A DNA stretch of 64,000 nucleotides from Macrocystis pyrifera. Lineage: Eukaryota > Sar > Phaeophyceae > Laminariales > Laminariaceae. Positions within the stretch are counted from its first letter, which is position 1, and every line of letters begins with the position of its first letter. Positions 13,287-64,000 of the stretch are shown here, in pieces. Made by a program: the position numbers and the translations under genes. Location of the stretch: NCBI GenBank assembly GCA_031763025.1, contig JASSKH010000027.1, positions 9,918,241 through 9,982,240 on the forward strand, in the 5' to 3' direction. The notes beneath the pieces are model-generated. The model ran no database searches, had not been told where the DNA came from, and was given only the letters and a program-made list of their open reading frames with translations.

Positions 13287-13395
13287 TATTACGGGGGTCC
13301 ACAGTTGATAGGACCTATGGTATACATAAAAAACTATATATTTACGTATCTTTACTAACAAAATTTGGTCCCGTTAACTATGGACCCCCGTAATA
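13287..13395. mobile_element. TA-MITE copy 8
   Basis: TATTACGGGGGTCCACAG to AACTATGGACCCCCGTAATA. It sits only 25 bp after copy 7, in the opposite internal orientation, and is cleanly flanked by TA. Confidence 0.88.
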
Positions 13396-34089: not shown

Positions 34090-37000
34090 CTGTTTTTTTT
34101 TTTTTTTTTTTTTTTCGGTTTGTGGGGTGAAAAACGTCGGACAGGGGGAGGCTATATGTTATTTTTTCGTTTGCCATCTTACAATGTGTACGTCGCGTGA
34201 GTGTCACGTTGAGGACGAGGGCAGAGACAGCTGCAAGCCTCCCTCCACAAAAAAAAAAACGAACAAACAAACAAACATACGAACAAACATGCGAACAAAA
34301 CGAACAAACAAAAAGCAAACAAAAACAAACAAACAGGCTAACAAAACAAACAAACAAACAAAGCAAACAAAAGCAAACAAACAAACAAAAAAAACAAACA
34401 AAGCAAAACAAAGAAAACGAACAAAAAACAAACAAACAAACAAACAAAAAAAAACAAAAAAAAACAAAACGAACAAACAAAAAAAAACAAACAAAACAAA
34501 AAAAACGAAAACAAACAAACGAAACAAACGAACAAAACAAACAAAACAGAACAAACCAAAACAACCACCTGCGAACGAACGCCGGTGCGACCACACAAAC
34601 ATACATACAAGGATTTTCTTCGGAGCGGGAGCAAAAAGATGGAGTCGTTTCTTGTACCAATACGACTTCGTTTGGTTGGCCTTGGACCATTCCGCCAAAT
34701 TATTGCAGTAATATGCCTTCATTGGGGTAATAGTACGGGGGATCATAGTAAATAGGACCAAATATTGTAAGTAAAATTAGCGAAATATATAGGTTTTTGT
34801 GTATGCCGTAGGTCCTATTAACTATGGCCCCCCGCAATAGTAGTCCAAAGCCGCCCACACGAAGTTGCAATTGTGTCATAAACGACAATATTTTCTGGGC
34901 AGCTATAAAGCGACCGATAAGCGGGCGACGCAAGAGGCACATTATCTGTAGCCCAGGGGGTAGAGTCGAGTTGGTGTGTGAGCAAGAGCTGCAAAAAAAG
35001 AGTGCAGCCAAGTTTACCGCCAGCACTTGCCGGTAACGTACGAAATTCGAAAAACAAAAAAAAAATTGGTCACAACAGGCAAAATTTGAAAGTCGAACAG
35101 GCCTTAAGGCTTAAACGCGGCGAACAATAACAGGGTAGTACCAGGTACCAGTACTATTTAGTCCGGGGCAAGGGTTGAGTAGTGCATGGCATGGGGATGA
35201 TATATAGTACGTATAGGCTATAGTATCGAGTAGAGGAGGGTTTGGTACGGGGAGGAAGGCAGCAGTACCGGCAACAACGACGGTTGGTTACGGAAAAGTC
35301 GTACAGCAGTTGTTGGGGCGTCCGCGATTTCTATCGTGTCGAGTTCCCTGCGGAGTCGTCGTGTTATTACGGGGGACCATAGTAAATAGGACCTACGGTA
35401 CACTCGAAAAATTATATATTTACCTATTTTTACTGACAATACTTGGTCCTATTTACTGTGCCCCCCCCGGTAATCCAACAATAACGACGGCAACGCAAGG
35501 AATAAGAAGCCCTGAAGAAATATGACTGAATACTTGTGTATCTAAATGATTGCACTTGTATATATATACCCCACAGCTTGTGAGGTGTCCTCTAGAACAT
35601 TTTTTATGCACGACTATTTTACCAATGTGGTCGAAAATATGATACTCGATTTATTAATACCTGGTATTACGGGGATCCATAGTAAATATGACCCACGGTG
35701 CACACAAAAACCCATACATTTACCTATTTTTTCCAACAATATTTGGTCCTATTTACTATGGCCCCCCGTAATAGCATTCACGTCACAGTCCGAACAGGGA
35801 CTACACCGACGGGTAGAATGACAGCTATCCCTTGTATCCCTACCCACATCTGCTTCATCCCGCCATCGAAGTCTTAAGCCTTTCGTTTCATTAACTACGT
35901 CTTCTATATCGAGCAGCAGCATCCTCCTCCTATCCTGCCGTAGTTTTGCTCGATGCGTATCTTGCGTGTGCCTTACTCTTGTCCCTTACAGCCTCTTTTA
36001 CTTGCTCCTCCCACCGTTCGGCTGCTCTGTTTCATACTATCAACTTCTTCCCCATTACTTTATTTGCCGTGGTCTTAAAAACTGCTCCCATCCTTCTAAT
36101 ATCCTCGCTCCTGCACTGTCCTTCTCCCTTTCGTTCTTCGTTGTGCCTGTGCTTTCCAACAGCTCGGAAAATTGCTCTGCATTTCGGCCATCTCTTCTTG
36201 GAGCTTTTTTATACTTCTTTTACTTCTACTGCTGTAGTTTATCCATTCTCCATCTGTACAATTTCCTACCGCGCCTATTTTTGGTAACTCTCGTCTGCTG
36301 CTGACTGTCCGTCTATATTAGGTAGTGATCCGTACTTCCTGCGTCCGCTGTGCATACGCGTACTTCCGTTTATTTACTATGCTTCCATTTTCTACCACTA
36401 AAAAGTCAAGAATGGAGCTCTCTCCCTTTCGTGTGCACTGTCTGGTCCATTCTGGCCCTGGCTTTTGTACTCTATCGTTCAACGTCTTCACCTCATTGTT
36501 CTTGAGGAACTTGAACATCTCTGCCCCATTCTTCTTCTTCGTTGCTTCCCCATATCCAATGCTCCCATTCGGGTTGCTCGCCTTCCCAATCATTTACTTA
36601 AAATTCCTCACTGGTGTTACTTCTCCTTGCCTTTTATACTTCTGTACATGGACTGCTGCTTCTCCGAACTTCCTCTACCGTACTCTTCGCCTCTGGGGGC
36701 ATATAGATGTTTCCTACGAAATGACCTTTTGCAGCCCCTCGTTCCCCAGGTAGCCATGTCTACCTGGTCGGTGAACACCCGACGTGCTCCGTCCCGGCAT
36801 TGTAGGGATGCGAGGGTCTATCTATGGTCATACGACTACGGCCATGCATGATAATGAGTACACCCCTGGTATCTTCATCCACATGCTTTCGTCGAATTTT
36901 GTGTCTTTGATCACCTCTAATATGCCGCACAGGTATCATTTGACTATTGATAGGGACCCTACTCTCCCCCGCCCCCCTGTTCTTGTTATTGATGTCCCTC

Positions 37001-38678
37001 TTTTTCCCTACCATGCTTACTCTCTAATAGTGCATCCTACGCCCCCCCCCCCCCCCCACCTCTTTCTCCCACGACTCTTGAATTCCCATTGTGTCTAGGC
37101 AGCGCTTACTTACTTTGTTCGGCTATTTCTATCCTTTTGCGCTCTTGCCTGGCGAATCCGCGTACGTTCCATGATCCTACGTATCCTCAGCCTCTTTTTC
37201 GTTTCTCCATCCGCTCTACGCTCGTGATGTGTTCCTTCCCCGTCCTTGCCTCTTATTTGAGCTTTCTTTCCGCGTCCGTTTCCGATGTTGTCTTTGTTTC
37301 TCCCTCATTCCCTTTGGGCCACTTACTGTTTGCTGCCGCCCCTCTCCTCCGTCCACCCTAGGACTACGTCTTAGTTTCGTTGTTCCATTAGCGTCGTATG
37401 CATACCGTCCATCCTACAGCAGTCTTCCAACGCATGCCGGCACTTTTTTTTCTGTTTCTATCCTCTGCCACTCCATGCTCGGTTTCGGTTTTAGCGTGAC
37501 TCGAGAAGGCTCTCCCTCCTTTTCAACTTATCCTAACGCAAAGCAGCACAGTCTTACTTCGTCGTACTTCCTCCTGAGATTGTTCCATATTAAATCTGGG
37601 TTTAGTGTTTTAGTAAAAGAAAAGGTAAGTTGAGTTATTTCAGGCCCATATCTGTTTTGTGTTTCGGTATGGGAAAATAAAACGGTTAGTTGCGTAATTT
37701 CATGGCTATGTCTGGTGTGTGTTTTGATGTGGGGAAAAAAGAAACTGGTTAGTTGAGTTGTTTCATGCTTAAATCTGGTCTGTTCTTTCGTCTAAATCTG
37801 GATTGTGTTTTCGTCTGAGAACAAAAAAGTGGCTAGCTGAGTTACTTCATGTTTGTGTTTTGGTATGGGGGGGAAAAAGTCGACAGTTGATTATTTCCAT
37901 GTCTCAATCCGGTTTGTGTTTTAGGTATGGCAAAACAAAACTGTGATGTCGTGTCTATCGCGTTGTGTCTGCTGTTCCAGTGGGTCTTGTCAATAAGCTA
38001 TTGTTTGCATGGTGTCTGTCTGGTCCATGTGGCATTTGTCCGGGAAGGGGCAGTCTGTACATTGCATGTCTAGTGTCTGGTGACTTGATTTACAGCGTCG
38101 TCACCACTCGACGCGTCACAGGGCGGGGGGGGGGGGGGGGGGTACTCATTATCACGCATGGCCGTAGTCGTATGACCATAGACCCTCGCATCCCTACAAT
38201 GTCGGGACGGAGCATGTCGGGTTTTCGCCGACCAGACAGACATTGGTTGCATCAAAAGGGCGAAGCGAAACGTGAGGTGTCCGGCGAGTCGCATGAAGGG
38301 TGAGCTGTATCCTACTAAGAACCGCTTTTGGGGCGGATTTTCTTGCATATGGATGACAGCGTCAACGAACTGGTGTATGCTCTGGTGTGGCCACTTCCAG
38401 AGACAGCAATGGGTTCACCATGTAACTGCCTCGTGGGTGCCTTACCATATACACACTTTGTGATACGATCAATTCCCTTGTGCAGAGTAAAGGTTCTCCA
38501 CCCCGCACAAAAATGATTTACCTCAGTCGCCAGTCGTGGTGACCGCCCAAAAAAAAAAACGGTACTACCCTGGCTGTCTAGCTCACGCAATGAGAGGCGT
38601 GTTTTACAGAATCGTCGCCAACCGACGCCAACCCAACTATATATACCAGGTATACCAGGTATATATTATAGAGGAAGG

Positions 38679-41700: not shown

Positions 41701-44700
41701 ACAAGCGCGTTTTAAAACATTGCGCCGCGTTTTGAAACGTTGCGCAGCGTTTTGAAGTTGTGCGCCGCAGGGTTACACGACCCCTTCGCCTCTCGGCGTC
41801 ATGGCTGGCTACGCTGCAAACTACAAACAACATAAACAAACTATCAATAACTTACGTTCATCTTTTTCTAAAAATTACTTGATTATAAGGACCTGCCTCG
41901 CGCTCAGCGAGTCTTACCACGATTTTTTTTGTCGCTTCTACGATCTTTGCTTTCTTCGCGTTCTTTGATTTCTTTGCGTGCTTGCTTGTCGTGCCACATA
42001 CTTTTTTTCCCGGAAAAAGAGGAAAAAAAAATCTCGGAAAAAGAAAAAGTCGATTTTGTTTTTTCAGCGGTTTGGCACTGCTCTATTTCGCTTTTTTTCA
42101 CCGGCTCGTTGAAATTTCTTTTGCACTTTCAGTTCTTTTTCCTGTTTTCTTCTTTCGTCTCGTGTGCGTGCGTGTACTCGGAGCACGGCACCGCGGGCGA
42201 GGCCGGCGCCGTCGCGGCAGTCAGCGGATGCTGGCGGGTAGAGGGGGGGTTGCAATGAGCGTGGTCGCCGTTTTCGTGGCTAGGCGTCGTGTGTGCCTCG
42301 AGACACGAGGGAAGCACGAATGGGCTCTGTCTGGCCTCCATCTGAACAAATAGATTGAGTATGTACGAATCCATAAGGGTCGTTCGGGATTGCAAGATAA
42401 TATTCAAGCGGTGCTTATTTTTGCGTAGAAAGCTGAAGCTCACCGAGAGACGTACGCAGTCTGAGCACCAACATTGTCGAGTTGGCGAACGAGTGTCACG
42501 GTGAGCACAGGGCTTCACGCGGGGCGTGCTACGGGGCTCACTGTGACAGAGAGGAAGGAAACCTTCACCCGGACCGAATCGGTGGCGAGGTGGTCGCGAG
42601 AGGGGCGGGCGACGTACGATGTTGAGAGAGAAGCTCTGCTGTTCGATTTTTTTTTTTTTCGACTGGTGCAAAGTGTTCCAATTAGGCAGAAATTTTTTGT
42701 TGCATGAGAGGGGACGGGGATTCGTGTTTCTTTCCGAAATTTCGGTTTCATTTTCATATTTTTGGCGGTGCTGCTGCTGTGCCGTGCTGTGTTTTCTCTT
42801 CCCTACATACCAGGTACATACAGCATACCAAAAGAACAGAAGCACCCTACCTGGGGTATGTACGTACGTACGGCATGTGAGCGAGCGTAGCGGGCGGAAC
42901 CCGCCCGCGACGCGAAGCGTATGTGGCGTCCGAGCTGCTTTCTCCTCAATGAATGAAGCATGGCGGCGGGACTCTTGGCATTATCAAGTCGCCAGTTTGC
43001 AGCTAACTACACGGGTCATGAAAAAAACAATATTCAATCATGGAACTCTGTCCGCTTCGCATAGTTTGAAGTACTTTTCCTTCCTGAGCGGGCGTAGCGG
43101 GCGGCGTAGAAGCGCCTTGTATATATATATATATCTGTATACCACCAGGTAAGGACGACATAGAACTGTTGTGGCGTTCACGTTTCCAGAAATGCTTGAA
43201 ACTCCAAACGCATTTTGCACAAAAAACAATGGTCCCGTTGGCTTTCCAGCTCAAGTCGCAGGAGCTCTTCCTTCCTGCACATGAATAATAGCATACTGGT
43301 GCTGTAAATGGTCCCTCCATAGTATTGCCGGTATGCACCAGCCAAGCCAGACCGGCATCGTATACAGCGGCAACCAGCACTGCTGCTCCTCAGACCACCA
43401 CACCGGTTAATCCCATCTGCATCAAGCGATTTCACCGGCGCTATACACAGCGGACGGCCGGCACTACTCGTCCGGCACTGCTTGTAGAGGGACTATTATT
43501 ACGGGGGTCCATAGTTAATAGGACTTATGGTATACATAAAAACCTATATATTTTTACCTATTTTTACTGACAATATTTGGTCCTATTTACTATGGACCCC
43601 CGTAATAATACTACTACTGCTGTACTGCTTGCCATAAAAGGGGAGCTCACATGCTACGATATCGGTATACCGTTTTTTTGGCAGAAAACAGTTATTACGA
43701 CTTGACGGACTCCCCAACTGAGGAACTAACTGCTCAATGTCGTACCCAGTACGACTTATCAATTTTCCTGAACAAAATTGTATTATTCGGTGTGCATGCA
43801 CACCCATTAATAGCTGGGCCACGCAATAAAACGCGAGTCGACGGGGGAAGAAAGGGCTGAAGCGTTTTCGCGCTAAAAAATGGAAGGCGCGAACCGTAGT
43901 GGGCAGGGGGAGGAGAAAAGCCTGCGCTATAATAGGTGACCCCGGATCTGAGTCTTATGACTATCAACAGGACGGGAGAGAGAAAAAAGACTAACAAACG
44001 GAGAAGAAGAAATTAAAAGGAGAAAGAAAGAAAGAAAAAACATGGCTCAGATCATGTTGAGGTTTTGACCGTTCAACGTTTCGCCAATCCGGCGTCCCCG
44101 GTGGCTTGGTAGGTGGTTCGCGTGCCTATCAAGATCAATTTCGTGGGTTCAAGTCTCACCGAGTGCATGCTCGTAGGGACTTTTTCTTGCACAAAAAATT
44201 GATCAGCGGAAAGCGCGAGAGCGTGAGTTAGCTACATCCGATGAAAATCGACGAGCAGTGGGAATGCTGAACCCTATGCGCGACAAAAAAAAAAGGCACG
44301 TACCGGGGGGGAGAAGGGACGACACCTGTGACCACGGCTTGTCCAGAAGATCGCTGAGGGTAAAACCTCCTACGAGTTAGGCTGGAAAGTAAAAGTGATG
44401 ATAAAAAAAAAAAAAAAAAAAAACGTTTCGCCAAAAAGCCACTTTTGGTTTTGGGGGGTGAGAGGTACAGTAGAGAGCTCCCACCTTGAAAAAGGAAACT
44501 TCTCTCTCCTCTACCACAACAAGCGTACAACAACAAAAAAAACTTCACAAACCGCTGTGCACTTACCAGCCTGGCCGTGTTGGACTGGAACACGATACGG
44601 AGGGCCTCCTGAAACGATTCCCTATCCTCCGCCTGCTCCGCCCGCCCCCCCTCCCCCTCCCCCGCCGGCGACACCAATTCCCTCGCCTCCTTTTTTTACG

Positions 44701-47700
44701 ACCGCGTCTATTGCCGCCGCCGATGCCTTTAGTGGTTCCGCCGCATCATCCCCGCTTTTTCCCGAAACGGCGCCTTCTTTCGCACCGACGGCGGGCTCAG
44801 CCGCAGCAGAACATTCCCTTGCCGGCTCTTGTATGAGCAGGGCGGACAGGAGAGCGATCGCGAAGCCTACGGCGGCCACGACGAAATGGCTGTCGCGCCA
44901 GCCGATTGCGCCTGCTCGATACGTTTCAAAGGTTTCACACGCGGGTCGGACAAAACCGCAGATCAGATCAGTTCAGATCAGATCAGATCAGATCTCCGGT
45001 TCATGATCTAGATTTTTCGTGGCGGATACGCACTTTTGTTGTTGTTGTTGTTGTTGTTGTTGTTGCTGTTGTTGTTGTTTGTTGTTTCCATTCATTGCCT
45101 TCGCCTTTCTTTTCTCTCTCCTTCCTATTAATAGCAGTTGTAACTCAGATCCGGGGGTCACACAGCAGAATCTCCCCCCCCCCCCCCCCTTCCCCCCCTA
45201 CCATTCATGCCTTGCTTTTGTTTTTCATCGCGAGATGACTTCAGCCCCTTTCTTCCCTCAAAGACTCGCGTCAAATACACATATATATATATATAAATAT
45301 ATATATATATATCCCTGATATGATCTCTACGCTCTAGACAATGCTTCTAGGGTGGGATCTGTATGATACCGACCTCTGCAGCACGTGTTTAGTAGTTGGG
45401 GGGGGTGGGGTTTCGTATGATACCGATCTCGCAGAAGATATCATAATAGTAGGCAACATACGGTAGGATCTACACGGTCCACAGTGTATCGTGATCTGTC
45501 TGATTTGTGCAAGGTTTGACAAAAGTCAGGCGATGGCGTTGCAAAACGCCATTTTCTTTATAGTGGCAGCGAAGCGCGGGGGTCTGCCGGGGAGGGGAGG
45601 GGGGGGGGGGGGGGGTGGTGTACTCATTGTCATGCATGGCCGTAGTCCTATGACCATAGACCCTCGCATCCCTACAATGCCGGGACGGACCACGTCGGGT
45701 TTTCACCGACCAAGCAGACACTGCTTGCACCAAGCGCGAAGCGCCGTGAGGTGTAGGGCGAGTCGCATGAAGTGTCAGCCGCATCCTACTAAGAACCGTG
45801 TTAGAGGCGGATTCTCTTGCATACGGATGACAGCACCCATGAATTGATCTAATTTCTGGTGCGACCACTTCCAGAGGCAGCAATGGGTTCACTACGTAAC
45901 TGCCTCGTGGGTGCCTCACCATATACACACCACGTGATACGATCATCCCCCTTGTGCGGAGCAAGGGTTCTCCCCGCACAAATATGATCTAACTCGACCG
46001 TCAGCCGTGGTAACCGCCAAAAAAAAAAAAAAAAAACGGTACTCTGGCTGTCTATTAATAGCTCATGCAGTGAGAGGCGTGTTTCACAGCGTCGTCGCCA
46101 ACCGACGCCAACCCAACCGAATATATATATGTATATATACCAGGTGGGGGAGGGGCATAATCGTAAAGGGCTCCAACGACATACACCAAAAACACCAACG
46201 CCGTTTTCTTGCAGCACGGCACTGATCTTTCGCGGCCATTCGAAGCAGAGAGATGCCGGATACTCAATGATCCAGCAGTGGTCACCTGTTCATGGCGAAT
46301 TTTTCCCAAGGTCTAGCTATTAGCTATTTGCGCACTCTGATTGGCTACGCAAGAGGCATATTGTACGCGGCTCAAGTCAACCTACTTGTACAAGTAGAGT
46401 CAGTCCAAGCCACAGCATCCAGAGCGGATCGAATCCAGCTATTTATAGAGTCTTTCCAAGCACAGCACCCAGGCCGGTCGAATCAACCTAGAGTCTTAGC
46501 AAGCACAGCATTCTAGCACTGCCTACCGGTTTAGGGCTCGGGTTCGGGCGCGGGTTGGGATTCGGATTCGGGTTCGGGTTCGGGTTCGGGAGCGGGTTGG
46601 GGTTCGGATTCGGGTTCGGGTTCGAGTTCGGAGGGTCGGCTTTAGGGGCCGAGCACAAAACCTCCGTAATTATTCGCTATCGAGGGGCGACCACGCCGCC
46701 AAACGATCACGTGTATAAGCACCACCTATGGATACGGAACAAATACAAGTATGCAGGTGTAAGTAACATCCTCTGGACACTCAACGAAGTACCCATACGG
46801 ACTTTTGTACATCGCATGAATGCGGGAGGCTACAACGTACAACAAGACACCGGAAAAAGAAAACAGCGCAATGAGTCGCCCACGCATTTCAAATGTTGAA
46901 CCCTTTTTATTAATACTGTAGTCCCGTTTTGGGGGGGCAAACCAGTCAAATCCCAAGTAGTTTGTCCCCAAAACGGAACTGAGGTACTAAAAGGGTCAAG
47001 AGCGGGACACAACCCAGCCCGCGACTAGATAAATCAAGACTCAGCAAGACATGCCCAACCGGGTACAAACAAAAACCGTCGGGAGGAACGCAAAAGCGCG
47101 GTCGGCTTACCGTTGAGGAGCAGAGACAAGCTCGCCAACGCTCCCCCCAGATACACGCCCGACGAGTAAATCGAGTTGGCGGTCCCCCGAGTCGACGCCG
47201 GGAAGAGGTCGCTGATCATCGTGTACGCCGCCGGTGTCTGCTCGAATCAGGACGCGGCGGGGGGGAAGAGGGGGGGCGGGGGGGGCGGATCGCGGGCGAA
47301 AGCGATCGGCGACAACGCTGACGAGCGAGTAAAAGCAGCACAAAAGTGCTCAGGGGTGTGATCTGTAGGGTATGTACTCGGAGGGTACCCGGGTACCTAC
47401 CCGTTTGTACTCAGGGGGTACCCGAGTGCCTACCCGTGTGTACACGGGGGGTTCTCGGGTATCTGCCCCAGTGTACTCGGGGGGTACCCGGGTACCAACC
47501 CAAGTGTACTCGGGGGGTACCCGCGTGCCTAGACGTGTGTACTCGGGGGGTACCCGAATACCTACCCCGATATATCAGGGGGGTACCCGGATACCTACCC
47601 GTGTGTACTCGGGGGGTACCCGGGTACCAACCCAAGTATATACCGGGGTACCTACCCGACTATGACGACAACAACTAGGTTTTATACCTGCGTATCTCAG

Positions 47701-48820
47701 AAAATATACCCTACAAAACATCCCCTTGATAAGACTTCGAACATGGCCACGGGGTACCCGGGTACAAGCTCAAGTGTACCGGGGGGTACCCGGATGCCTA
47801 CCAGACCATGACCACAACAACTGGGTTTGAACCCGGGTACCCCAGAGTATATACCCTAGTAGTGAGGCGCGCGGCTTTTTTTCTTGACCTGCAAGGAAAA
47901 AAAGCCTCTTCGTGATGGATCATACCTGGTACGAGCGTAGGGTGCCTTGCTTTAGTTTCTCTGTAAGCGTGTTCGTGTGTGTGATTCAACGTTGTTTTCA
48001 CCGCGCTCAATGCACACAGCACCATTCCCAGCCCCGGCGGGCTTTGTGCACGCACACATACCAACGAACCCTTCTCGTGCTGCTGGTGTGTGGTTGTCAA
48101 GTCGCTCAGCGTTGGTCGAGCCAGGTGCGGCAACGTGTGCTTACGGGGGACCATAGTAAACAGGACCAAACATTGTTAGTAAAAATACCTAAATATATAG
48201 GTTTTTGTGTATACCGTGGGTCCTATTTACTATGGCCCTCCGTAATAGTGGAGGCAGGCACACGGCTGGACCATGTTTTCAAAACAAAATCGGAACGCAA
48301 AAAGGTATCATCACGCTTTTTGCTGTTTTTTTTTTTTTTTCATTTTTTCACAATCAGAGTTCTGCCGAGCGATACCCACAACCCTACAGGCAGAATGTGT
48401 GCGTCCACAGCTAAACGTTTGGGCCGTGTCCCCCAAGACATGCCGCAGGTGATAGTATCAGACCCCCCCTCCTACTGATGGAGGGGACGGAGAAGCCCTG
48501 CCGTGGATATCGTACAGCAGTAGTATATCCAGTGGTGGCATCTCTGCTATGTCGTATTACGGGGGACCATAGTAAACAGGACCTAGGGTAGACACAAAAA
48601 CCTATATATTTCCCTATTTTTACGAACAATACTTGGTCCTATCAACTACGGCCCCCCGTAATAGTTCGTGTTGGTGATGCCAGGTGCGGATTTTTCGCCC
48701 TCAAGTAAATCGAAACCGAGATCCACGTTCGGGCACGTGTACGGGTATGGAGGGTACAAGGGTTGATAGACCGACAAGCTGGGCGTACATCGACGCTGGC
48801 CCTGGCCAGGTGTGTTCTAC

Positions 48821-51800: not shown

Positions 51801-54800
51801 GATCCAGCCGGAGCTATGCTTCCGAAGGGAGTGTTCGGGTCGAGGCTTCCGAGGTTGCAGGTGTCCCGCCATGGCGCAGCAATCGTCAAGCAAAAGGCAC
51901 ACCAACAGGACGGAGCCCAGAGACCCAGCTCCGGCGGTTCCCTTTTGCGGCTCTGGGCGCGCAGCGGCGGCGGCGCTGTTCAGCTGCTAGTCGTTTTGAT
52001 CGATACCTGCCCCGTGCTTGCTCGCGTTTTTTTTCTTGTTTTGGTACCCGAGGACACAAAATCCCATGTTGTTTCTTAGAATTTTTCAGAAAACGTCTCG
52101 CCATATACTATCACGGGGGTCCATAGTCAACAGGACCTATGGTATACATAAAAAACTATATATTTACCTTTTTTTTACTAACAAAATTTGGTCCCATTAA
52201 CTACGGACCCCCCTAATACCAAACGTCGCGGCGGGGGCTTGCAGGCATTTTTTTGGGCACCCTACTGTTTTGGCGTCGTCGAAAGAAGGAAACTCGCATC
52301 CGCTCGTAATAAAAACAAAAACGAATCGGGTTATGTGAGCGGTGAGTGTGAGTGTGACTTGATTCGTCCTATTACGGGGGACCATGCAGTAGTAAATAGG
52401 ACCGAATATTGTTACTAAAAATATGGAAATGTATGGGTTTTTGTGTGTACCGTAGGTCCTATTTACTATGGCCCCCCCGTAACAAGAAGTGGTCAAAGTG
52501 CGCGGCCTGCCCTAGGGAAACGATCACACCAGTATAAGGATGTTCGCGAAAGTTATGGTTAGGTTGGGTTTCTCGTACGTAGTCTGTTTCCTACTATAAC
52601 AGCAGTCCCAGCCCACGAAAGATTGAATGCTGTGGGAAAAAGTGACCGAATGACGTTTTCAGCCCTCAAGTTATTCTTGGATTTTGGGTAAACTCTGCGG
52701 GTTGGTTAGCAAACGGGAGCAATACTTCCGATTCACCTGTTGAACCAATCATCTCCTCACGTTCGTCGGTAACAACTATTTTTATAACCCAACCAAATCG
52801 GGCTACTATCGCAAACGCCCTACCAGGTAACCTACGATAAGCTGCAGCTCAAACTTATTGCGATTTGGGAGAGTCGACGGACAAATCACGAAACGGCTAT
52901 TACGGAGGACCATAGTAAATAGGACCTACGGTACACACAAAAACCTGTATATTTACCTACTTTTACTAACAATATTTGGTCCTATTTACTATGGTTCCCC
53001 GCAATAGCCAAACAAACAAACGACACTCTTTATTGGGGTCGCTACGAGTATTAAGCAGACTTTTGTGTTTCTCATCTCGCGGAAAACTCCCAGTTCGCAG
53101 CTTTTGTATTTCGCATTTCTGGAAAACTCTTCCGACTCGGCCAGACAAGGAATCGAGATGGCGGGGACACCGTCGTATCGTCGCAGTAACTTCGGGCAGG
53201 CGGACGGTGCGAACCGTGCGCGCCCTATCGCCACTCGCCACCGTGAAGGAAAAACCAGGGTAATGTCCAGGGTCATCTCGAGGCCATGGCTGATCACAGA
53301 AAGCGCCGTGCGTCGCGAGTCTTCCAACAGTCGTCCAGTTGACAGAGCCGATTCATCGACGTAGCCGAGATCAACACGAAACCGCTAACTACATTCTTGT
53401 CGTGGAGGGTTTTGTAGCGCCAAAAGCTGTTCATGTTCATAGCTGCGGTTACGCCGCATCTCCAGGAGGCGGGGGGGGGGCACCACCGGCGGCACCATCA
53501 AGCGGACGACCTTCTCGAGCGCGGCTAGTTTTTTGACGACTTTATTCGATCGATCGATTGGACGAGAGCGTTGCAACGTCACCAACGCATGAATGCAAAA
53601 CCAGGGGGCGCCTGGCACCATCAAAAGCAGGCGCACGCTTAAACCTTTCAGGGGAAAACCGCAGTCCCGGTTTGGGGGACAAACTACTTTTAATTTGACC
53701 GGTCTGTTCCCAAAAACGGGACTGCGGTCCTAGAAGGGTTAAAACCAACCAATGTTTACACACCTCAGACAGATCATCTACAGATCGTTCCTACACGATG
53801 ATTTAGCTCATTTAGGATAGGTATATCCCTGATCTATATGATCTAGCTCATGTTGCCGGGTGAGAGAGCCCGATGATCTAAATGATCTATTCCTACTTGA
53901 CGGCCTAGCTCATTTAGGACAGGTGCATCCCTGATCTATACGATCTAGCTCATGTTGCCGGGTGAGAGAGCCCGACGATCTAAATGATCTATTCCTACTT
54001 GACGATCTGGCTCATTTAGGACAGGTGTGTCCCTGATCTATATAATCTAGCTCATGTTGCCGGGTGAGAGAGCCCGATGATCTAAATGATCTATTCCTAC
54101 TTGACGATCTAGCTCATTTAAGACAGGTACATCCCTGATCTATATGATCTAGCTCATGTTGCCGGGTGAGAGAGCCCGACGATCTAAATGATCTATTCCT
54201 ACTTGACGATCTGGCTCATTTAGGACAGGTGTGTCCCTGATCTATATGATCTAGCTCATGTTGCCGGGTGGGAAGCGTATAATCTGCGTGATCTAGCACA
54301 TGTTTCCCGGGTTGTATCTGCCCTATAAGGCAGATCCTGCACAACCTCTCACAACGGCAGGTGAGGAACCAGATGATCTGCTGTAGACAGATCAGATAGA
54401 TAGATCATGACCTGCACAACCTCTCACAACGGCAGGTGAGGAACCAGATGATCTGCTGTAGACAGATCAGATAGATAGATCATGACCTGTCCGAGGTGTG
54501 CAGTGTTATACATACCGCTGTCTCTCAATACAAGCGCCTTTTTGATTAATTATTTAGTGTACAAATGGTCGTTCTATTTAGGGACAGAGAGAGTGGTACT
54601 GCCGAACGTACGTACAGCAGTGGCTATGGAGTCTATTACCGGTGCGCTTACAATCCCCGCAATCTACTGCTGCTGTTGTTGTACGCAATCATATAAATGG
54701 TGGCGACACGGGGCCGATCACTTTTGCCGCTGCAAAACTAATCCTGTTCAAATATCCAAGCAGTTCGTCTCCACAACGTGGGTGTTTGTCCTAAAGGCCA

Positions 54801-55450
54801 AGGTTAACCCTTCTACTGCTGTACCAGGTATAGTACAGTGCTGCACAAGCTATATAATATCCCACTTCATGATCAAGTATTCATCAATACAGAAGACGGT
54901 GCGGGTTCCAAGGGGTTTTCAGAGTTCCGCCGATTAACTGGTCGGGGGACAGACAAACTACTTGGAATTGGTGCGGCATAAGCTTTGCGCTTCTAAAGCG
55001 CCCCCCCCCCCCCCCCCCCGCGCCAAGGCCCCAACGCACGTCCCCCGCAAGCCCGCAAGCGTCGGACAGTGAGACCCACAGCCCTTACAGGAATAATATA
55101 CCTGGTACGAGTACCTACTATTATGGGGGAACATAGTAAATAGGACCTACGGTACACACAAAAACCTATATGTTTACCTATTTTTACTAACAGCATTTGG
55201 TCCTATTTACTATGGTCCCCCGTAATATAACATCAATAGTACACTCACAGTAAATAAGGCTCCTGGTCCACTGGTTGCTGACGTATACCAGCAGCAGCAT
55301 TGCCAGGGAAACCCACGACACCATGGGCACCTTCGATGCGGTCTCTCCTTCTTCCGCGCTCGTAGCAGTAGCTGGAGCTAGCGGTGCTCCCAGGCCTTCC
55401 CCTACCGCCAACCGACGGAGATCAGGCTCCTCGCCCCCGCCCCCGGTCAT
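33894..55450 (-). CDS. MFS transporter, complete multi-exon gene
   Basis: Rebuilt exons (minus strand, 5' to 3'): 55450-55249, 51214-51128, 50069-49864, 47237-47111, 44911-44567 (containing a probable 70-nt intron 44702-44633), 40799-40611, 39006-38795, 34089-33894. All junctions have GT..AG and matching phases, and the joined CDS is 1494 nt (497 residues plus stop). Twelve hydrophobic spans can be read. MFS motif A is present after span 2 (GRAVDVVSRK) and, reduced, after span 8 (GGVISDKY). Spans 4-5 carry 'LRVLQGSAQAF' and the 'LFPASTRGTANSIYSSGVY' loop. This resembles spinster-type and organic-anion MFS carriers, but the substrate cannot be read from sequence. Introns average ~2.9 kb and hold SINEs, LINEs, MITEs and satellites. 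Divergent from the ALDH gene 1.2 kb away. Confidence 0.88.
34093..34563. repeat. A/C-only (AAAC)n tract beside a T run
   Basis: From about 34246 to 34563 the plus strand is almost only A and C (AAAC units with slips), over 300 bp of strand asymmetry inside MFS intron 7. The T run 34093-34115 adjoins exon 8. The long Lys/Thr/Asn- or Phe/Val/Cys-rich frames here are artefacts of the repeat. Confidence 0.85.
34731..34839. mobile_element. TA-MITE copy 9 (MFS intron 7)
   Basis: TAGTACGGGGGATCATAGTA to ACTATGGCCCCCCGCAATA, with the standard core. Foldback, non-coding. Confidence 0.85.
34840..35364. other. MFS intron 7, unassigned part
   Basis: No gene recognised. TACCAGGTA lies at 35139. Confidence 0.35.
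35365..35474. mobile_element. TA-MITE copy 10 (MFS intron 7)
   Basis: TATTACGGGGGACCATAGTA to TTTACTGTGCCCCCCCCGGT. Confidence 0.85.
35665..35773. mobile_element. TA-MITE copy 11, inserted at the end of a TA-word chain
   Basis: TATTACGGGGATCCATAGTA to ACTATGGCCCCCCGTAATA. The TA it inserted at is the last TA of TATTAATACCTGGTA (35652-35666), so this MITE sits directly on two putative excision footprints. Confidence 0.88.
35780..37612 (-). mobile_element. LINE fragment with endonuclease domain (MFS intron 7)
   Basis: Minus-strand frames read as the apurinic-type endonuclease of a non-LTR retrotransposon. Around 37180-37100 is 'GSWNVRGFARQERKR', the opening motif. Around 36593-36318 come 'FKFLKNNEVKTLNDR', 'GPEWT' and 'ILDFLVVE', typical of the 'SxIDYILV' end of the domain. 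There are many stops and frameshifts. It is interrupted by a SINE-C copy at about 36751-36866 and a C run at about 37041-37056. Whether it is the 5' part of LINE family C cannot be judged here. Confidence 0.6.
36751..36866 (+). mobile_element. C-tailed SINE (SINE-C) 3' fragment nested in a LINE
   Basis: CTACCTGGTCGGTGAACACC, GTCCCGGCATTGTAGGGATG, CTACGGCCATGCATGATAAT and GAGTACACCCC, inside the endonuclease-bearing LINE on the opposite strand. Confidence 0.7.
37613..37950. repeat. Degenerate ~65-75-bp tandem repeat (MFS intron 7)
   Basis: About five imperfect units each containing GTTAGTTGAGTTATTTCATG and TCTGGTTTGTGTTTTGGTAT with an A-rich spacer. Confidence 0.7.
38125..38637 (-). mobile_element. 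Full-length C-tailed SINE (SINE-C) reference copy
   Basis: The minus strand starts TTGGGTTGGCGTCGGTTGG and runs through a poly-T/U patch, GGCACCCACGAGGCAGTTAC, GTGCTCCGTCCC-type sequence, TATGGTCATACGACTACGG and TAATGAGTAC, then a C run (G run 38125-38142 on the plus strand). About 510 bp, no ORF of note. I see no clear Pol III A/B boxes, so the head's origin is unknown. The last ~75 nt resemble the LINE-C 3' end. Confidence 0.78.
38682..38777 (-). mobile_element. LINE family C 3' tail abutting MFS exon 7
   Basis: The plus strand reads a 33-nt G run, GTACTCATTTGTTGCATGCC and GACCACGCATCCCTTTCGAG. This is a ~95-bp 3' stub of LINE-C, sense to the MFS transcript, ending about 15 bp from the exon 7 splice donor (38794-38793). 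Confidence 0.78.
38795..39006 (-). CDS. MFS exon 7: spans 9-10
   Basis: 212 nt. Acceptor GTTTTCTTTCAG|GACGTG, donor TTCAG|GTGAAT. Starts in phase 0 with 'DVRVRAWVPMVG' and ends two bases into a Ser codon after 'GVGQGVF'. It encodes span 9 ('WVPMVGCLLAVPCWIGVV') and span 10 ('YVSLGFLLAEYIVAECWFGP'). Both junction phases match their neighbours. Confidence 0.88.
39285..39358. repeat. (CCCGA)n pentanucleotide repeat
   Basis: ACCCGACCCGACCCG units with a few substitutions, in MFS intron 6. Flanked by related GGGTC-rich sequence (39190-39285). Confidence 0.85.
39359..39947. other. MFS intron 6, unassigned part
   Basis: C run at 39619-39635 and G run at 39731-39746. No gene recognised. Confidence 0.35.
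39948..40372 (+). mobile_element. C-tailed SINE (SINE-C), nearly full length
   Basis: GTCGGCCGGTCACAGCTGGC, GGCACCCACGAGGCAGTTAC, GACGTGCTCCGTGCCGGC and GGTCATACGACTACGGCC, ending GAGTACC..C at about 40360-40372. It lacks roughly the first 90 bp of the 38.1-kb copy. Confidence 0.75.
40373..40610. other. C-rich stretch in MFS intron 6
   Basis: CCCCCTCC-rich low-complexity DNA running to the donor of exon 6. Nothing else seen. Confidence 0.4.
40611..40799 (-). CDS. MFS exon 6: spans 7-8
   Basis: 189 nt, 63 codons, phase 0 at both ends. Acceptor GCGCGCAG|CTC, donor GTGCAG|GTTAGT. It encodes span 7 ('LFAATAFRFCAGFGIGVWC'), the loop 'FFRGRYPSFTSEF', span 8 and the second-half motif-A remnant 'GGVISDKY'. 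The acceptor is preceded by a CGCAC repeat in place of a pyrimidine tract. Confidence 0.88.
40803..41055. repeat. GCACC and GGT microsatellites next to exon 6
   Basis: CGCACCGCACCGCACC units at about 40806-40852, starting right at the exon 6 acceptor, then GGT/GGC-rich repeats at about 40925-41052. Confidence 0.8.
41056..43490. other. MFS intron 5, unassigned part
   Basis: No coding exon recognised. It contains an A run (41461-41476), three GCGTTTTGAAACGTTGCGC-type units at 41709-41762, a T run at 42648-42659, and GC-rich foldback sequence at 42868-42915 (GAGCGAGCGTAGCGGGCGG facing GCCCGC). The last is related to minus-strand sequence at about 60215-60265. The 43320-43490 segment resembles 50400-50600 (GCGGCAACC.GCAC motifs). 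Confidence 0.4.
43497..43607. mobile_element. TA-MITE copy 12 (MFS intron 5), near-perfect foldback
   Basis: TATTACGGGGGTCCATAGTT to CTATGGACCCCCGTAATA, flanked by TA on both sides. One of the best-preserved copies. Confidence 0.9.
43608..44074. other. MFS intron 5, unassigned part
   Basis: TACTGCTGTA at 43615. The segment at about 43845-43970 (GACGGGGGAAGAAAGGG.., TAGTGGGCAGGGGGAGGAGA, GGTGACCCCGGATCTGAGT) recurs at about 62940-63060 in ALDH intron 2, so it is another dispersed repeat. Confidence 0.5.
44088..44421 (+). mobile_element. tRNA-derived SINE, intact, with 13-bp target duplication
   Basis: Body ~315 bp plus an A tail (44403-44421). The head has an A-box-like TGGCTTGGTAGGTGG and B-box GGGTTCAAGTCTC, spaced as in a tRNA promoter. 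AACGTTTCGCCAA flanks it exactly (44075-44087 and 44422-44434). A second copy is at 62471-62788. Antisense to the MFS gene, in intron 5, about 130 bp past the end of exon 5. A-tailed, so probably mobilised by a different LINE from SINE-C. Confidence 0.9.
44567..44911 (-). CDS. MFS exon 5 block: span 6, central loop, lead-in to span 7
   Basis: Starts with two bases completing Gly ('LLLN-G-AIGWRD'). Acceptor CGAGCAG, donor GGCTG|GTAAGT in phase 0 after 'FQSNTARL'. It encodes span 6 ('FVVAAVGFAIALLSALLI') and a hydrophilic Ala/Glu loop. The frame changes by one base inside a G-rich linker. A 70-nt intron at 44702-44633 (GTCGTA..GAGCAG) restores phase exactly, giving sub-exons 44911-44703 and 44632-44567. 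A length change in one of the G runs would be the alternative. Confidence 0.82.
45037..45080. repeat. (GTT)n microsatellite
   Basis: GTTGTTGTT with one GCT interruption, in MFS intron 4. Confidence 0.85.
45591..46117 (-). mobile_element. Full-length C-tailed SINE (SINE-C) with a TTAATA micro-insertion
   Basis: Same structure as 38125-38637, in MFS intron 4, ending in a long C run (G run from 45591). Where the other full copy reads GGCTGTCTAGCTCA (plus strand, about 38572), this one reads GGCTGTCTATTAATAGCTCA (46045-46064), a clean 6-bp gain that turns one TA into TATTAATA. Confidence 0.8.
46118..46895. other. MFS intron 4, unassigned part
   Basis: It contains a GGGTTC hexanucleotide array at about 46543-46640. 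No gene recognised. Confidence 0.45.
46896..46999. mobile_element. piggyBac-like TTAA MITE (MFS intron 4)
   Basis: Foldback with TTGAACCCTTTTT at the left and CTAAAAGGGTCAA at the right. Core GTAGTCCCGTTTTGGGGGG faces GTTTGTCCCCAAAACGG. The flanking tetramers TTGA/TCAA look like one-base variants of TTAA. TATTAATA (46908-46915) sits in the left arm where other copies read TAGGAC. Confidence 0.65.
47111..47237 (-). CDS. MFS exon 4: span 5
   Basis: 127 nt. Acceptor TTCGAGCAG|ACA in phase 0, donor CTCAACG|GTAAGC in phase 1. It encodes 'TPAAYTMISDLFPAS', the conserved cytoplasmic side of spans 4-5, and span 5 ('SIYSSGVYLGGALASLSLLL'). Confidence 0.9.
47346..47860. repeat. ~39-bp minisatellite rich in GGTACC
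   Basis: About eight units of TGTACTCGGGGGGTACCC and GGGTACCTACCCG in MFS intron 3 (47375-47655), plus two degenerate units to about 47860. Frames over it give repeats in all registers, so these are not genes. Confidence 0.9.
48141..48247. mobile_element. TA-MITE copy 13 (MFS intron 3)
   Basis: TTACGGGGGACCATAGTAAA to TTTACTATGGCCCTCCGTAA. Confidence 0.87.
48555..48663. mobile_element. TA-MITE copy 14 (MFS intron 3)
   Basis: TATTACGGGGGACCATAGTA to AACTACGGCCCCCCGTAATA. Confidence 0.87.
48820..49225. repeat. CTG and GGC microsatellites (MFS intron 3)
   Basis: (GCT)n at 48820-48885 and (GGC)n at 49194-49224. Poly-Cys, -Leu and -Ala frames here are artefacts of the repeats. Confidence 0.85.
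49541..49840 (-). mobile_element. A-tailed retroposon family Z, carrying a TTAA MITE
   Basis: T run (49541-49551), CCCTCCGGCGGATTAGTAA, then after a ~100-bp foldback insert it resumes AAGCTCACCACATTTTCC and later CGTTGCTCCCGTTGCAAC, matching the 7.0-kb copy. Located in MFS intron 3, ending ~25 bp from exon 3. Confidence 0.6.
49602..49703. mobile_element. piggyBac-like MITE inserted in retroposon Z
   Basis: CCCCTTTTTAAGGACTGCAG at the left, GACTGCGGTCTTAAAAAAGG at the right. The uninterrupted Z copies at 7.0 and 10.2 kb show the empty site, so this is a real insertion. Confidence 0.72.
49864..50069 (-). CDS. MFS exon 3: spans 2-4 with motif A
   Basis: 206 nt. Acceptor AAAAAACAG|GA, donor TTCACG|GTGAGA. 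It encodes span 2 ('LLASFSFTLLFSTCSLVAG'), motif A 'GRAVDVVSRK', span 3 and span 4 ('FGLRVLQGSAQAFT'). The phases (two bases in, zero out) match exons 2 and 4. Confidence 0.9.
50158..50360. repeat. AAGAAC/AAGAGC hexanucleotide array
   Basis: AAGAACAAGAACAAG-type purine-rich repeat in MFS intron 2. Open in several frames but low-complexity. Confidence 0.85.
50361..51127. other. MFS intron 2, unassigned part
   Basis: It contains dispersed ACCGGCACTA / AGCGGCAACC motifs (50400-50600, shared with 43320-43490), TACCAGGTA at 50461 and a CTG run at 50885-50910. Confidence 0.4.
51128..51214 (-). CDS. MFS exon 2: loop 1-2
   Basis: 87 nt. Acceptor GAAACAAG|AC, donor CAGTACG|GTGAGC. It encodes 'VQNFDATTEATVKEFMNIG' and 'LGFDETQYG', the extracellular loop between spans 1 and 2. 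The AAG acceptor is weak, but the phase and the match to the expected MFS sequence support it. Confidence 0.85.
51215..52108. other. MFS intron 1, unassigned part
   Basis: No exon recognised between 51215 and the MITE at 52109. Confidence 0.35.
52109..52217. mobile_element. TA-MITE copy 15 (MFS intron 1)
   Basis: TATCACGGGGGTCCATAGTC to AACTACGGACCCCCCTAATA. Confidence 0.87.
52370..52483. mobile_element. TA-MITE copy 16 with a 5-bp internal insertion
   Basis: TATTACGGGGGACCATG to TTTACTATGGCCCCCCCGTA. Where other copies read CCATAGTAAAT, this one reads CCATGCAGTAGTAAAT, a GCAGT gain at a TA. Confidence 0.87.
52898..53006. mobile_element. TA-MITE copy 17 (MFS intron 1)
   Basis: TATTACGGAGGACCATAGTA to TTTACTATGGTTCCCCGCAA, flanked by TA. 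Confidence 0.87.
53007..53638. other. MFS intron 1, unassigned part
   Basis: G run at 53472-53481; no gene recognised. Confidence 0.35.
53639..53742. mobile_element. piggyBac-like TTAA MITE, best-preserved copy
   Basis: TTAA at 53639-53642 and at 53739-53742. Arms: ACCTTTCAGGGGAAAACCGC then AGTCCCGGTTTGGGGGAC, facing CAAAAACGGGACTGCGGTCC then TAGAAGGG. TTAA flanks plus a C/T-rich start next to TTAA are features of piggyBac-superfamily elements (inference). No coding. Confidence 0.75.
53785..54290. repeat. 102-bp tandem repeat, about five copies
   Basis: GATCTATATGATCTAGCTCA starts units at 53831, 53933, 54035, 54137 and 54239, exactly 102 bp apart. Each has GTTGCCGGGTGAGAGAGCCC and CTATTCCTACTTGACGA. 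Very high identity implies recent amplification. In MFS intron 1. Confidence 0.93.
54300..54490. repeat. Short duplicated block next to the 102-bp array
   Basis: CACAACCTCTCACAACGGCA and CAGATAGATAGATCATGACC occur twice in tandem. A single diverged copy is at 12430-12560. Confidence 0.85.
54491..55118. other. MFS intron 1, unassigned part
   Basis: Contains the chained word TACTGCTGTACCAGGTA at 54814-54830 and a C run at 54999-55019. The segment 54917-54985 resembles one arm of the TTAA MITE (GGGGGACAGACAAACTACTT). Confidence 0.4.
55119..55228. mobile_element. TA-MITE copy 18 (MFS intron 1, 20 bp from exon 1)
   Basis: TATTATGGGGGAACATAGTA to TTTACTATGGTCCCCCGTAA. It ends only ~20 bp from the exon 1 donor. 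Confidence 0.87.
55249..55450 (-). CDS. MFS exon 1: N-terminus and span 1
   Basis: 202 nt from ATG at 55450 (complement of CAT 55448-55450) to donor TTTACT|GTGAGT. It encodes a ~42-residue cytosolic Gly/Ala/Glu-rich head and span 1 ('VSLAMLLLVYVSNQWTRSLI'). The last base combines with exon 2's AC to give Tyr. No upstream in-frame ATG; only a GTG at 55477 precedes it in frame. Confidence 0.85.
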
Positions 55451-56743: not shown

Positions 56744-59700
56744 GTGGGTGCATATTGGGCTCCCACTTCAGTAATACAACCGGCCTGCCTTTCAGCCGTG
56801 TTTGTCATTTGTGTGGCACAAGTGTTCACTGGTGGGCATGTTTCGGATGCACCTGTACTTTTCGCTACGAGTACCCTGGAATAATACCCGAGATATGTTT
56901 ACGTAGATAGAGGCAGTACTGCTGCTGTAAAACAGCAACTTTCATGATCACATCTACCGGTACTATTTACGGGGGGGGGCTATAGTAAATAGGACCTACG
57001 GTACACACAAAAACTTTATATTTGGCTATTTTTACCATCAAGATTTGGTCCTACTTACTATGGTCCCCCGTACTATTAATAATCCATGACCACCACCACC
57101 AACCTGTAAGAACACAAAACATACATGCACGTACATGTTTGGGCGAGTTGTCTGTCGTCAATCTCTCTGCTGCTTCTTGTTGTGTTCTTCAATACTCGTC
57201 TTCTTTTCTACCCGTCGACATCCGGCACAACCAGTGTCCGTGCCGATTCTTCAACCCTGGAGAGATACAAAGCTCTGTGGCTCACACAGGTATGGCCAAA
57301 AAACATGCACCAGAGATAATAATGGTTATGCAGCAAACAACCAGAGTAGACAGCACTGCAGAACAGTAGTGCCATGTTCATCGTACTGGATACCACATGC
57401 GCAACACATACGTACACAGCAGCAGTCTATGAAAGAGAGAAAACGAAAGAACAGAAACCGAAAAATAAGTGCCGTGCCCCCCTGCACTTTGGCAGACACC
57501 AGCAGTAGTCCAGTAGTACTGAACGACCTAGAGAAAACAATACCACCAGACCACCACAAATAAACAGCAGAGTAAGAGCAAGAACGAAGGGCTAACGGAA
57601 GCACAACAAGTAATCACCCTCCAGGCAGCAGCAGCAGCAGCAGTTTGTGGTACGAGTATGAAGCATAGACAGGTTTTACCTTGTACTATTGATTAATAGA
57701 CGGGTGATACCTGTCGGCCGTCTCCTCCCTGCTTTCTTCGTCAACCATGCCCACCGCCGGAGAGGATGCTTCAGACAATATATAGAACAACCAAAGCAGG
57801 CTCGCCATCCGTCGACGAAACAAGGCTTCTTTCAAAACAGGAAGAAAGATAAGAGAAACAAGAAAAAAAAATCACGGAGGACCAAAAGCGCCAAAAGAAG
57901 AAAGAAAGGAAAAAAGGAAGATCACGTTCGAACCAGCTGCAGCGGTTGGCGGCGCGAGTACTCGTAGCGTAGACATGTTCCACTTGCTGTAGTTCACTCC
58001 TCCTGTTGCCCCCCCTGTCCCCACTCCCTCGGGCGGGTTTCTTTCTACTCCTCCTGTTGCCCCCCCTCCCCCCACTCCCTTGGGCATCACCCGGGGCGGA
58101 TGCGCGGCGCTGCGTACTCATCTGTGCGTCATCCTCGCGCCACTTCACCATGAACCGTTCGTCTTCTTCGAGGACCCCCCGGTAGCACTTCCCCGCCTTG
58201 TTTGCTGCAGTGGACCATAGCAGCGCGATCTCAACTCCATGCTAGAATGGGGAGTGTTCCGTTGTTCCTTCGATGGCCCGGAGCTCCCGAAGGTCTTCGA
58301 CCATGCATATCTATGCCAAGTCTTGAAGTGTCCTCCAGGTCTCGAGGAATCTCCGCACTAGCCATCGTCCCGAACATCACCCGACTGGGTGTTCGCCCTT
58401 TGCTTTGCCGCGCCACGGCCCCCGCCAGTAAGAGCCGCCGTTTACGGATAGTCGTTCCGATGCTCTCGCAAAGGCCTTCGCGTACGAGGGGGTGGCGTGG
58501 TCGGTACGAAGCCGGCGCTGGAAGCCAATGACTCGCAAAAGGACTTGGTGGTAAAGCCGTTCGAAGCTTGGCATAGTGTTCCGCTCTGAAGGTCCGCGTC
58601 ACACACCAGTACAGCAGGGTCTCAATCAACTCGGCCTTCAGCATGCGGGCTTTTCAGACTAAGCGAGGCGGTCGTCCTATCATACAACCCCGGGCCGAAC
58701 CGTTGGAGGCATGCCCGCATGAGACGGATCCGTCGGTCGATTTCGAGTGAGAGGTCAGCGTTTCGTTGCTAATGCCGCCTTTGTAGGTATAAGAACAGGG
58801 CCGTCTGTTTTTATTTGTGGGCATAAGAACTTGGCCGTCTGTTTATACCTCTGGCCTCTGCTGCTTCGATGACGAGCAGCGGGGCGAGGGTTGTTTGGTC
58901 TTGTGTTTGTGGCAGCATTGTCTCTGTCTTCTTTTCCGATACGGTGAGGCCTGCTGCTTCGAAGACAGGCACGGTGACTGTCATAATTTGAGCGAGTCCT
59001 TCAGCCGACTTCGAGACAACGCGTGCGTCATCCGCGTACAACATGCCCCATTTAGCCCTTCGCATGCATGCCAGGGGCTCCTGCTCCTCTGTTTGTTCCA
59101 ACATCGTTGAGTTGAACCGTTCCGAGTGCTCGCCGTCATCTGTACGCACCCGAGCCCGCATGCCTTCATGCAAATTGCGGATAACTTTAAGCATCTTGCA
59201 TGGTACGCCAGAGCGTGTGCGTACCTCCCACAGCAGCTCTCGGTCGACAACCGTGGTACGCTTTCTGCAGATCGACTACGTATCGACCGACCTCTTTCAA
59301 CCGGCGCACAGCGAACAGCGTATCGATCGTTGATCGTGCGGGGCGGAAGCCGCCCTGGTCCTCCGGGAGTATGCCCTCGGTCTTGAAGTAATTGATGAGG
59401 CGGGACTCGACGATTTTCCACAACACTTTGCCTGCGTGGGCAACAAGCGAAATCCCTCTGTAGTCATTGCAATCAGTTCGGTCCTTTTTAGTGAAAGACC
59501 TTGATGGTCGCATCTTTCCACTGCTGGGGGACTTCTCCCGTTACCCAATCGTTGACAAGGATGTTGTGAAAGCACTGGGCGAATACGGGGTGGTCGATTT
59601 TCAGGAGTTCGGCCGGGAGAACATGTGGCCCAACAGCCTTTCAATTTGACGTGTTCTTGATTGCTTCCGTCATCTCGTCCATGTTGATGGTTCGTCTCCG

Positions 59701-62788: not shown

Positions 62789-64000
62789 ATACCATACCAT
62801 TATACCTATACCATACCATTATAGCTATACCATACCATTATACCTATACCATACCATTATCCTATACTATACTATTATACCTATACCATACCATTATACC
62901 TATACCATTCCATACCAGGTAGCAATAAGACGCCTGTCGACGAGGGAAGAACGGGCGGAAACCTTCTCTCTCGCGATCAAAATGCAAGGCACGAACCGTA
63001 GTGGGCAGGGGGGGGAGAAAAGCCTGTCATATATTAGGTGACCCCGGATCTGAGTTTCGACTTTAGGTAGGAGGGGAAGAGATAAAAGAAGGACGAAGGT
63101 AAAATGTATGAGGGAAAAAATGCCATACCATGCCATGCCATGCCGCACCACACCATGCCGTTTCGGCTCGAAGGCGTAGTATGTTCATAGATTTCATGGG
63201 TACGTTGTACCCAGCGTATTGCTACCGCCTTGCCTACCGCGCGTATCATACTCGCGAAGAAAGGAACGGGAAGTGTGGTTATGTATCCCGCCAAAACCCA
63301 GGGTGACACCGGGGAAGAACGAACCGCAACAACATCGGCGTGCTGGCGACGGTCACGCTCGTATCGCACAGGAAGGGAGTGCGGGGCGCGGTCGCCGAGA
63401 GTGTTGGCTGTGGGGGTTCTCTTGCGGTTTTCCTGCGCCCACCGGCCTTAAGGCTTTATAGGCCGGTTGCTGTTGTGCTCGTCGTGTAGTAGTGTCCAGT
63501 AGTGTCGTGTATTGGTATGATGGTTTAGTGTCGTATTCATATCTTTCTTGGGAGTGTCTTTTCGTCTCATGTCTTAACTTTTCGATTTTTTTTTTTCCGC
63601 TCATGTTTTTATCATCTTCCAGGTTTTCCTGTTTTTTTTCTCCAAATATTTTTGAAATTTAACTTTCCCGGTATTTTTCCCTCTGGTAATTTTCACCAAT
63701 CGTGACAGAACGCCTCCTAACCGCCTTAAAATCTCCAAAATTCTCAGTGACTTTATTTATTAATAGTCACTGGGCTGACACGAAAACTATTAAAATCCCC
63801 AAATCCCCTGCTTTTCAACTCTGTTTCGACGTATAATTCCTTTGTTTATTTAGTAGTCCCCTCCCTGCTATTAGTAGCTTAAGTCAAAACACGATTTGGC
63901 TCTGTAGCCCATCGTTCATCTACTCCACATTTCATCGGGTATACGTAATCTGACTCTGTAGCTTTCCCGTCGCCAATGTTTTTCCTATTCGATGCTCCAC
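62789..64000. other. ALDH intron 2 to the window edge
   Basis: Microsatellite (62789-62910), then a repeat shared with 43845-43970 (62935-63060), then CCATGCCATGCC units (63120-63160). No ALDH exon 3 is recognisable before 64000. TATTAATA at 63758. Confidence 0.5.

Follow-up and report, generated by a model that had tools for sequence, protein, structure and literature searches.

Two collinear copies of the SINE-C repeat in the giant kelp genome differ by six bases at a single TA, raising the question of whether the additional bases are a footprint left by a transposon that has excised. Both copies lie in the window (the whole 64,000-nucleotide stretch analysed, C208:9918241-9982240) and read as originally described: the unscarred copy, with its empty TA aligned at 38579..38580, contains GTCTAGCTC, and the other (46050-46064) contains GTCTATTAATAGCTC, in which the palindromic 8-mer TATTAATA occupies positions 46053..46060. 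The genome assembly searched consisted of 223 contigs totalling 537,376,219 bases (the available text of its description, PMC10498591, gives a size of 537 Mb, 223 contigs and a GC content of 50.37%), and a 264-kb sample combined the window with 20 further 10-kb stretches, all from one contig. Our results indicate that TATTAATA very probably marks, in most instances, the place from which a cut-and-paste element inserting at TA, mainly a MITE of ~105 bp with the structure TA-TTACGGGGG...CCCCCGTAA-TA, was excised and the donor DNA repaired. Rfam at gathering cut-offs gave no matches in the window and no tRNA was found there; an ankyrin-repeat gene of the LQWAR..GCPWD type was located at 27088-28188, with a long open frame on the opposite strand too.

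The resident element displays the features of a MITE, namely small size, absence of coding capacity, inverted terminal repeats and high copy number. It measured 104-107 bp between the flanking TAs in 13 intact copies and is therefore non-coding. A profile search identified 21 loci in the window and 58 in the 264-kb sample, pieces included, in keeping with the ~19 TA-flanked copies initially counted in the window. Copies on the forward strand were matched at 2032..2140, 2374..2486, 9212..9318, 11947..12054, 13153..13261, 13287..13395 (with TA on both sides), 34732..34839, 35365..35467, 35665..35773 (beside stacked scar words), 43498..43607, 48555..48663, 52110..52218 (with the variant end TCACGGGG), 52370..52481, 52898..53006, 55119..55227 and 56967..57073, and one on the reverse strand at 48141..48247. 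Pieces were matched at 28..156 (two overlapping partial matches), 237..306 and 1345..1393. At the 63 TA-flanked ends among 78 scored (the other 15 lacked TA), the first two bases were TT in 52 cases, TC in four, GT, TA and TG in two each and AT in one. Exact TATTACGGGGG ends numbered 66,605 genome-wide against 212 for the control, and scaling by the 58 loci per 43 exact TATTACGGGGG ends in the 264-kb sample gave an extrapolated ~90,000 MITE loci, a figure that includes pieces and is scaled from one contig.

MITE ends were also observed at a fixed 1.24-kb spacing on contigs C5, C14 and C19, the C19 example (L049) perhaps being a duplicated segment. As a candidate autonomous element this arrangement was rejected, the L049 example consisting of three separate MITEs and a SINE-C. 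The exact TIR pattern occurred twice in GTDB contigs and was absent from viral contigs. A kelp-like, MITE-bearing contig (L022) is filed in a bacterial genome named Flavimaricola, and a protein named Marinobacter in a bacterial bin (P0121) was 100% identical over the searched region; kelp-like sequences of this sort in public bacterial bins suggest host contamination.

Comparison of homologous sites supplied evidence for excision. In a dispersed repeat, one homologous TA was found empty, filled by the MITE and as TATTAATA. The empty state was present in five copies, namely L040 (...CTACTTCC-TA-GTCGG), L009 (...CTACTTAC-TA-GTCGG), two copies in L003 and one at window position 3832; the filled state was present at L003:9738-9846 (...CTACTTAC-TA-MITE-TA-GTCGG) and the scar state in L009 (...CTACTTCC-TATTAATA-GTCGG). 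The empty site has one TA and the filled site two, which, with the 63 TA-flanked ends, is the target duplication of a Tc1/mariner element. In both this repeat and SINE-C, TA has become TA-TTAA-TA, showing the TA duplication plus two to three end bases of a Tc1/mariner scar and matching the TA-TT-AA-TA that the original prediction had derived from the end bases of the MITE. Targeting of TTAA with seamless excision, as for piggyBac, was rejected, the empty sites reading CTAG-like TA and not TTAA. A second repeat, with TATTAATA at 45126..45133 in the window and in its relatives L019 and L020, and with a MITE at approximately the same place in L022, is a weaker case than the three-state repeat because the immediate bases vary among copies and one window copy reads TGTTGATA.

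The scar in the SINE-C copy at 46053 was 6 bp longer at the TA than all seven spanning copies. In a systematic test of 60 TATTAATA sites, 11 had a spanning homologue and four of these were exactly 6 bp longer, whilst the controls gave no such gain in 30 AT 8-mers or nine TA..TA words. Two of the four were clean gains at TA (46053 and L009:8693, the latter +5 in some alignments), one involved TG (L003:8765 was +6, yet shorter copies read TG) and one, L012:6773 inside a MITE, was ambiguous, with a gain of 9 bp in 35 alignments but of 6 bp in a single alignment. The seven remaining sites included some with +9 at TA, some misaligned and some in which scarred copies were compared with one another. 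None of the 11 comparable sites was collinear only. Aligned repeats thus showed gains at TA and not substitutions, and an origin of TATTAATA by point mutation, the outcome that would have undermined the original prediction, was rejected.

This pattern is consistent with excision of the Tc1/mariner type in which a 2-nt stagger is filled in. A transposase would cut the transferred strand at the tip of the element and the other strand 2 nt inside it, leaving each flank with TA and the first two element bases (TT); because the two TT overhangs cannot pair, they would be filled in and joined to give TA-TT-AA-TA. We infer the 2-nt stagger, end-joining repair and the MITE, as opposed to a longer same-ended relative, as the usual source. 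Cleavage with a 2-nt stagger is described for ISY100, a Tc1/mariner element of the IS630 group, in the available text of PMC2170065; ISY100 and the kelp MITE both target and duplicate TA, whereas the ISY100 junction after in vitro ligation is given there as TATATA and the TT/AA ends of the kelp element yield TATTAATA. Sleeping Beauty, in contrast to the 2-nt overhangs proposed here, has 3-nt overhangs according to the accessible part of PMC7827188. A stagger of that length is not favoured for the MITE, because the corresponding word TATTATA was found 23 times in 264 kb, near the order-3 expectation of 18.3 (8.0 at order 1), and TATTATAATA had no occurrences in the same sample.

Profile searches of the genome with PF13358 and PF03184 did not find an autonomous partner with matching ends. 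PF13358 gave no matches, with three candidates scored, and PF03184 (DDE_1, pogo-like) gave 39, of which 17 had E <1e-18 and 15 of those were without internal stops. The one inspected of these 39 loci, L048, contains a DDE_1 frame with no TTACGG or CCGTAA within its 3.6 kb, and this pogo-like copy was rejected as a partner of the MITE on account of the missing TTACGG ends.

The bases adjoining the TA provided a further connection between scar and element. T-3, A-2 and C-1 had frequencies of.58,.52 and.44 at the 63 MITE ends and.49,.51 and.51 at 116 TATTAATA scar flanks, compared with.28,.27 and.20 at background TA. Scored under the MITE logo, TATTAATA flanks had a mean log-odds of 0.62, against a null mean of -0.80 and maximum of -0.35 in 2,000 random draws, and 12 words used for comparison (11 distinct, because one pair are reverse complements of each other) scored between -1.82 and -0.08. 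Scar and MITE therefore have a target preference in common. The TTAATA gain at TA, the three states at one TA and these common flanks all support the original claim that TATTAATA is an excision footprint of the MITE.

The second commonest MITE end, TC (4/63), predicts the variant scars TATCAATA and TATTGATA, which were found 30 times against 4.7 expected (14 versus 3.3 and 16 versus 3.6, respectively, at order 3), an excess bigger than the MITE end frequencies predict. Their flanks scored -0.16, a value reached by three of 2,000 random TA draws; this is well below the TATTAATA flanks and no better than TATTATTA (-0.08) or TACAGTA (-0.22). These words are not most simply read as decay products of TATTAATA, because its other transition neighbours were less raised (CATTAATA, 13 versus 5.9; TACTAATA, 10 versus 4.3; TGTTAATA, 5 versus 6.6). 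The transversion neighbours TAATAATA and TATAAATA were also raised, 6.0-fold and 4.0-fold. The correspondence of variant end and variant scar lends weak support to the excision reading.

Real scars might nevertheless derive more from other TA elements with TT...AA ends, such as a longer autonomous partner or relative, than from the MITE itself. A scar keeps just two bases per end, so any element of this kind would leave TATTAATA, and the surplus of variant scars over MITE end frequencies is what such additional sources would produce. We regard this as unlikely, however, given that the target flanks of scar and MITE coincide, that the filled sites found hold the TTACGGGGG-ended MITE, and that the recurrent TA termini in 264 kb (12-mers with diverse left flanks and at least 6 copies) were limited to TTACGGGGG and the scar words.

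Having attributed most scars to the MITE, we considered how many excisions they represent. The SINE-C set consisted of 71 alignments (minimum length 90 nt) to an unscarred copy, with extra loci fetched using a scarred query, which biases the scarred fractions upward: 42 alignments covered the TA that is scarred in the copy at 46053 and six of them were +6 bp there, and 41 spanning copies comprised 25 with TA, six with the scar, five with CA and five others. A second SINE-C TA, in L031, also showed a TTAATA gain, and all seven SINE-C gains were at TA. The scar with its flanks, GGCTGTCTATTAATAGCTCA, was found at 15 places genome-wide. So many exact scarred copies at one TA would be expected had excisions been few and scarred SINEs or other repeats multiplied, spreading copies of an old scar. 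Two scarred SINE-C copies in L046 with a common flanking variant agree with such spread, as does the finding that scarred copies were on average slightly nearer each other than empty ones (0.101 versus 0.131, in the set fetched with the scarred query), and some scars are copied inside SINEs. As an account of the scars in general it is nonetheless quite improbable: for each of the six scarred SINE-C copies, the five closest relatives in the set were all unscarred, a pattern that suggests repeated scar events in SINE-C, and 52 of the 58 TATTAATA occurrences sampled in 264 kb were in distinct contexts after a 6-nt flank filter.

An exact word count gave 16 occurrences of TATTAATA in the window. 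All 14 sites in the original list were real, but the list had missed two, at 5112..5119 and 12426..12433. The remaining putative scars were located at 2308..2315, 22732..22739, 25688..25695, 25775..25782, 26372..26379, 26626..26633, 28757..28764, 28804..28811, 46908..46915 and 63758..63765, together with the two repeat sites described above, one at 57074..57081 adjoining the 3' end of the MITE copy at 56967..57073, and one at 35652..35659 followed by CCTGG-TA and a resident MITE. The claimed excess over about one occurrence at even composition was borne out, the expectation being 0.88 from base composition and 0.65, 0.27 and 1.24 at Markov orders 1, 2 and 3; at orders 4-6 the expectation (4.4, 9.0 and 14.6) climbs towards the count found, since these models are trained on the word as well. 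Outside the window, 42 occurrences were found in 200 kb of the same contig, giving 58 in 264 kb against 2.3 (order 1) or 4.7 (order 3, a 12-fold excess). Genome-wide, where a comparison with background had been proposed as a check, there were 94,130 occurrences against 7,522 of the reversed word (12.5-fold). Of the TA-NNNN-TA words found 8 or more times in 264 kb, only TATATATA exceeded TATTAATA in order-3 over-representation. These excesses over Markov and reversed controls in the window, the 264-kb sample and the genome rule out chance. That TATTAATA is no scar and reflects base composition, a microsatellite or a regulatory motif is scarcely credible, for although AT-rich palindromes such as TATATATA are frequent too (139 in 264 kb) and a protein might bind a palindromic 8-mer, the shortfall of both controls, the 6-bp unit gain at TA in SINE-C, the occurrence of all three states (filled, empty, scar) at a single site and a flank preference equal to that of the MITE all contradict it.

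Net of the control, TATTAATA amounts to an estimated ~87,000 exact words genome-wide, and scars seem about as common as MITEs still in place. The earlier proposal that the MITE has excised as often as it stayed agrees to an order of magnitude with the 94,130 TATTAATA words and 66,605 exact TATTACGGGGG ends.

A second TA-flanked word, TACCAGGTA (TACCWGGTA), was found 121,279 times genome-wide on both strands, against 2,421 for the reversed control (~50-fold). In the window, TACCAGGTA or TACCTGGTA occurred at 22223, 22600, 25753, 28662 and 38644, among others. Gains of TACCAGGTA at TA were identified in repeats or MITE copies at L009:8717 and 8926, L004:7787, L012:6746 and, as a double gain, L015:1957, and also in a SINE-C copy. 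Among 90 sites, 14 had a spanning homologue, of which five were exactly +7, three were collinear only and six were other. The flanks of TACCAGGTA had a MITE-logo score of -1.10 and displayed a preference of their own, with a purine before and a pyrimidine after. The TA(CAG)nTA words TACAGCAGTA and TACAGCAGCAGTA were strongly raised in the 264-kb sample (words of this form were at window positions 28674 and 48513 and at L015:143), and in one SINE-C copy such a word was cleanly gained at TA. Words of the TACGAGTA type were raised too; there were single gains of the TACAGCAGTA or TACGAGTA type, the CTCG one being against a TG copy. TACWGTA and TACCWGGTA are reminiscent of what would form if overhangs mismatched at the centre were joined. 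Neither 264 kb nor ~348 kb contained a recurrent TA terminus whose ends match TACCAGGTA or the TA(CAG)nTA words, and TACCAGGTA may be the footprint of an element that is now scarce or has vanished. A Gypsy-type retroelement frame of 1669 aa at 15757-21516, situated between identical 233-bp direct repeats and consistent with a recent insertion, contained neither TATTAATA nor TACCWGGTA.

Scar words were also found stacked. At 35652-35667 the window reads TA-TTAA-TA-CCTGG-TA-MITE, the MITE beginning at 35667, and a ~600-bp tract at L012:80-720 is dense in TATTAATA, TACCTGGTA, TACAGCAGTA and similar words, as if by repeated insertion and excision at one locus; overall, scar words cluster modestly beyond random placement. 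On balance we lean slightly towards the view that several TA transposons have left the kelp genome a lexicon of TA-core-TA scars, and that some of these transposons are now nearly without resident copies. If so, the scars would record vanished transposon families, and each would add a TA target for new insertions, giving rise to tracts of stacked scars.

The excision mechanism is of a known kind, and the interest lies in its scale and in the ghost-like scar words. Stowaway MITEs resemble the kelp MITE in being short, non-autonomous and TA-flanked, as far as the available parts of PMC4561436, PMC1925063 and PMC4423477 describe them, and the first of these says that Stowaway-like and Mariner elements, on excision, leave end sequences behind together with a small duplication. 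The kelp MITE differs in ending with TTACGGGGG and not with CTCCCTC, the Stowaway terminus, listed as the Mariner TIR in Table 1 of PMC4423477, and, unlike in the Stowaway comparison, its scars approximate the number of resident copies across a 537-Mb genome. Among the titles listed in searches of the open PMC literature, none announced genome-wide scar counts or kelp MITE scars. In a genome-wide comparison, transposon excisions were hand-sorted from hundreds of polymorphic loci, as the available text of PMC4423477 has it. Here, one genome carries ~87,000 net scars beside a similar estimated number of resident elements, so that the balance of excision and retention, the choice of target and the outcome of repair could all be measured in bulk. 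Should the second scar class represent a ghost family, scars would detect transposons of which little other sequence is left, and would supply a large multicellular alga with new TA sites.
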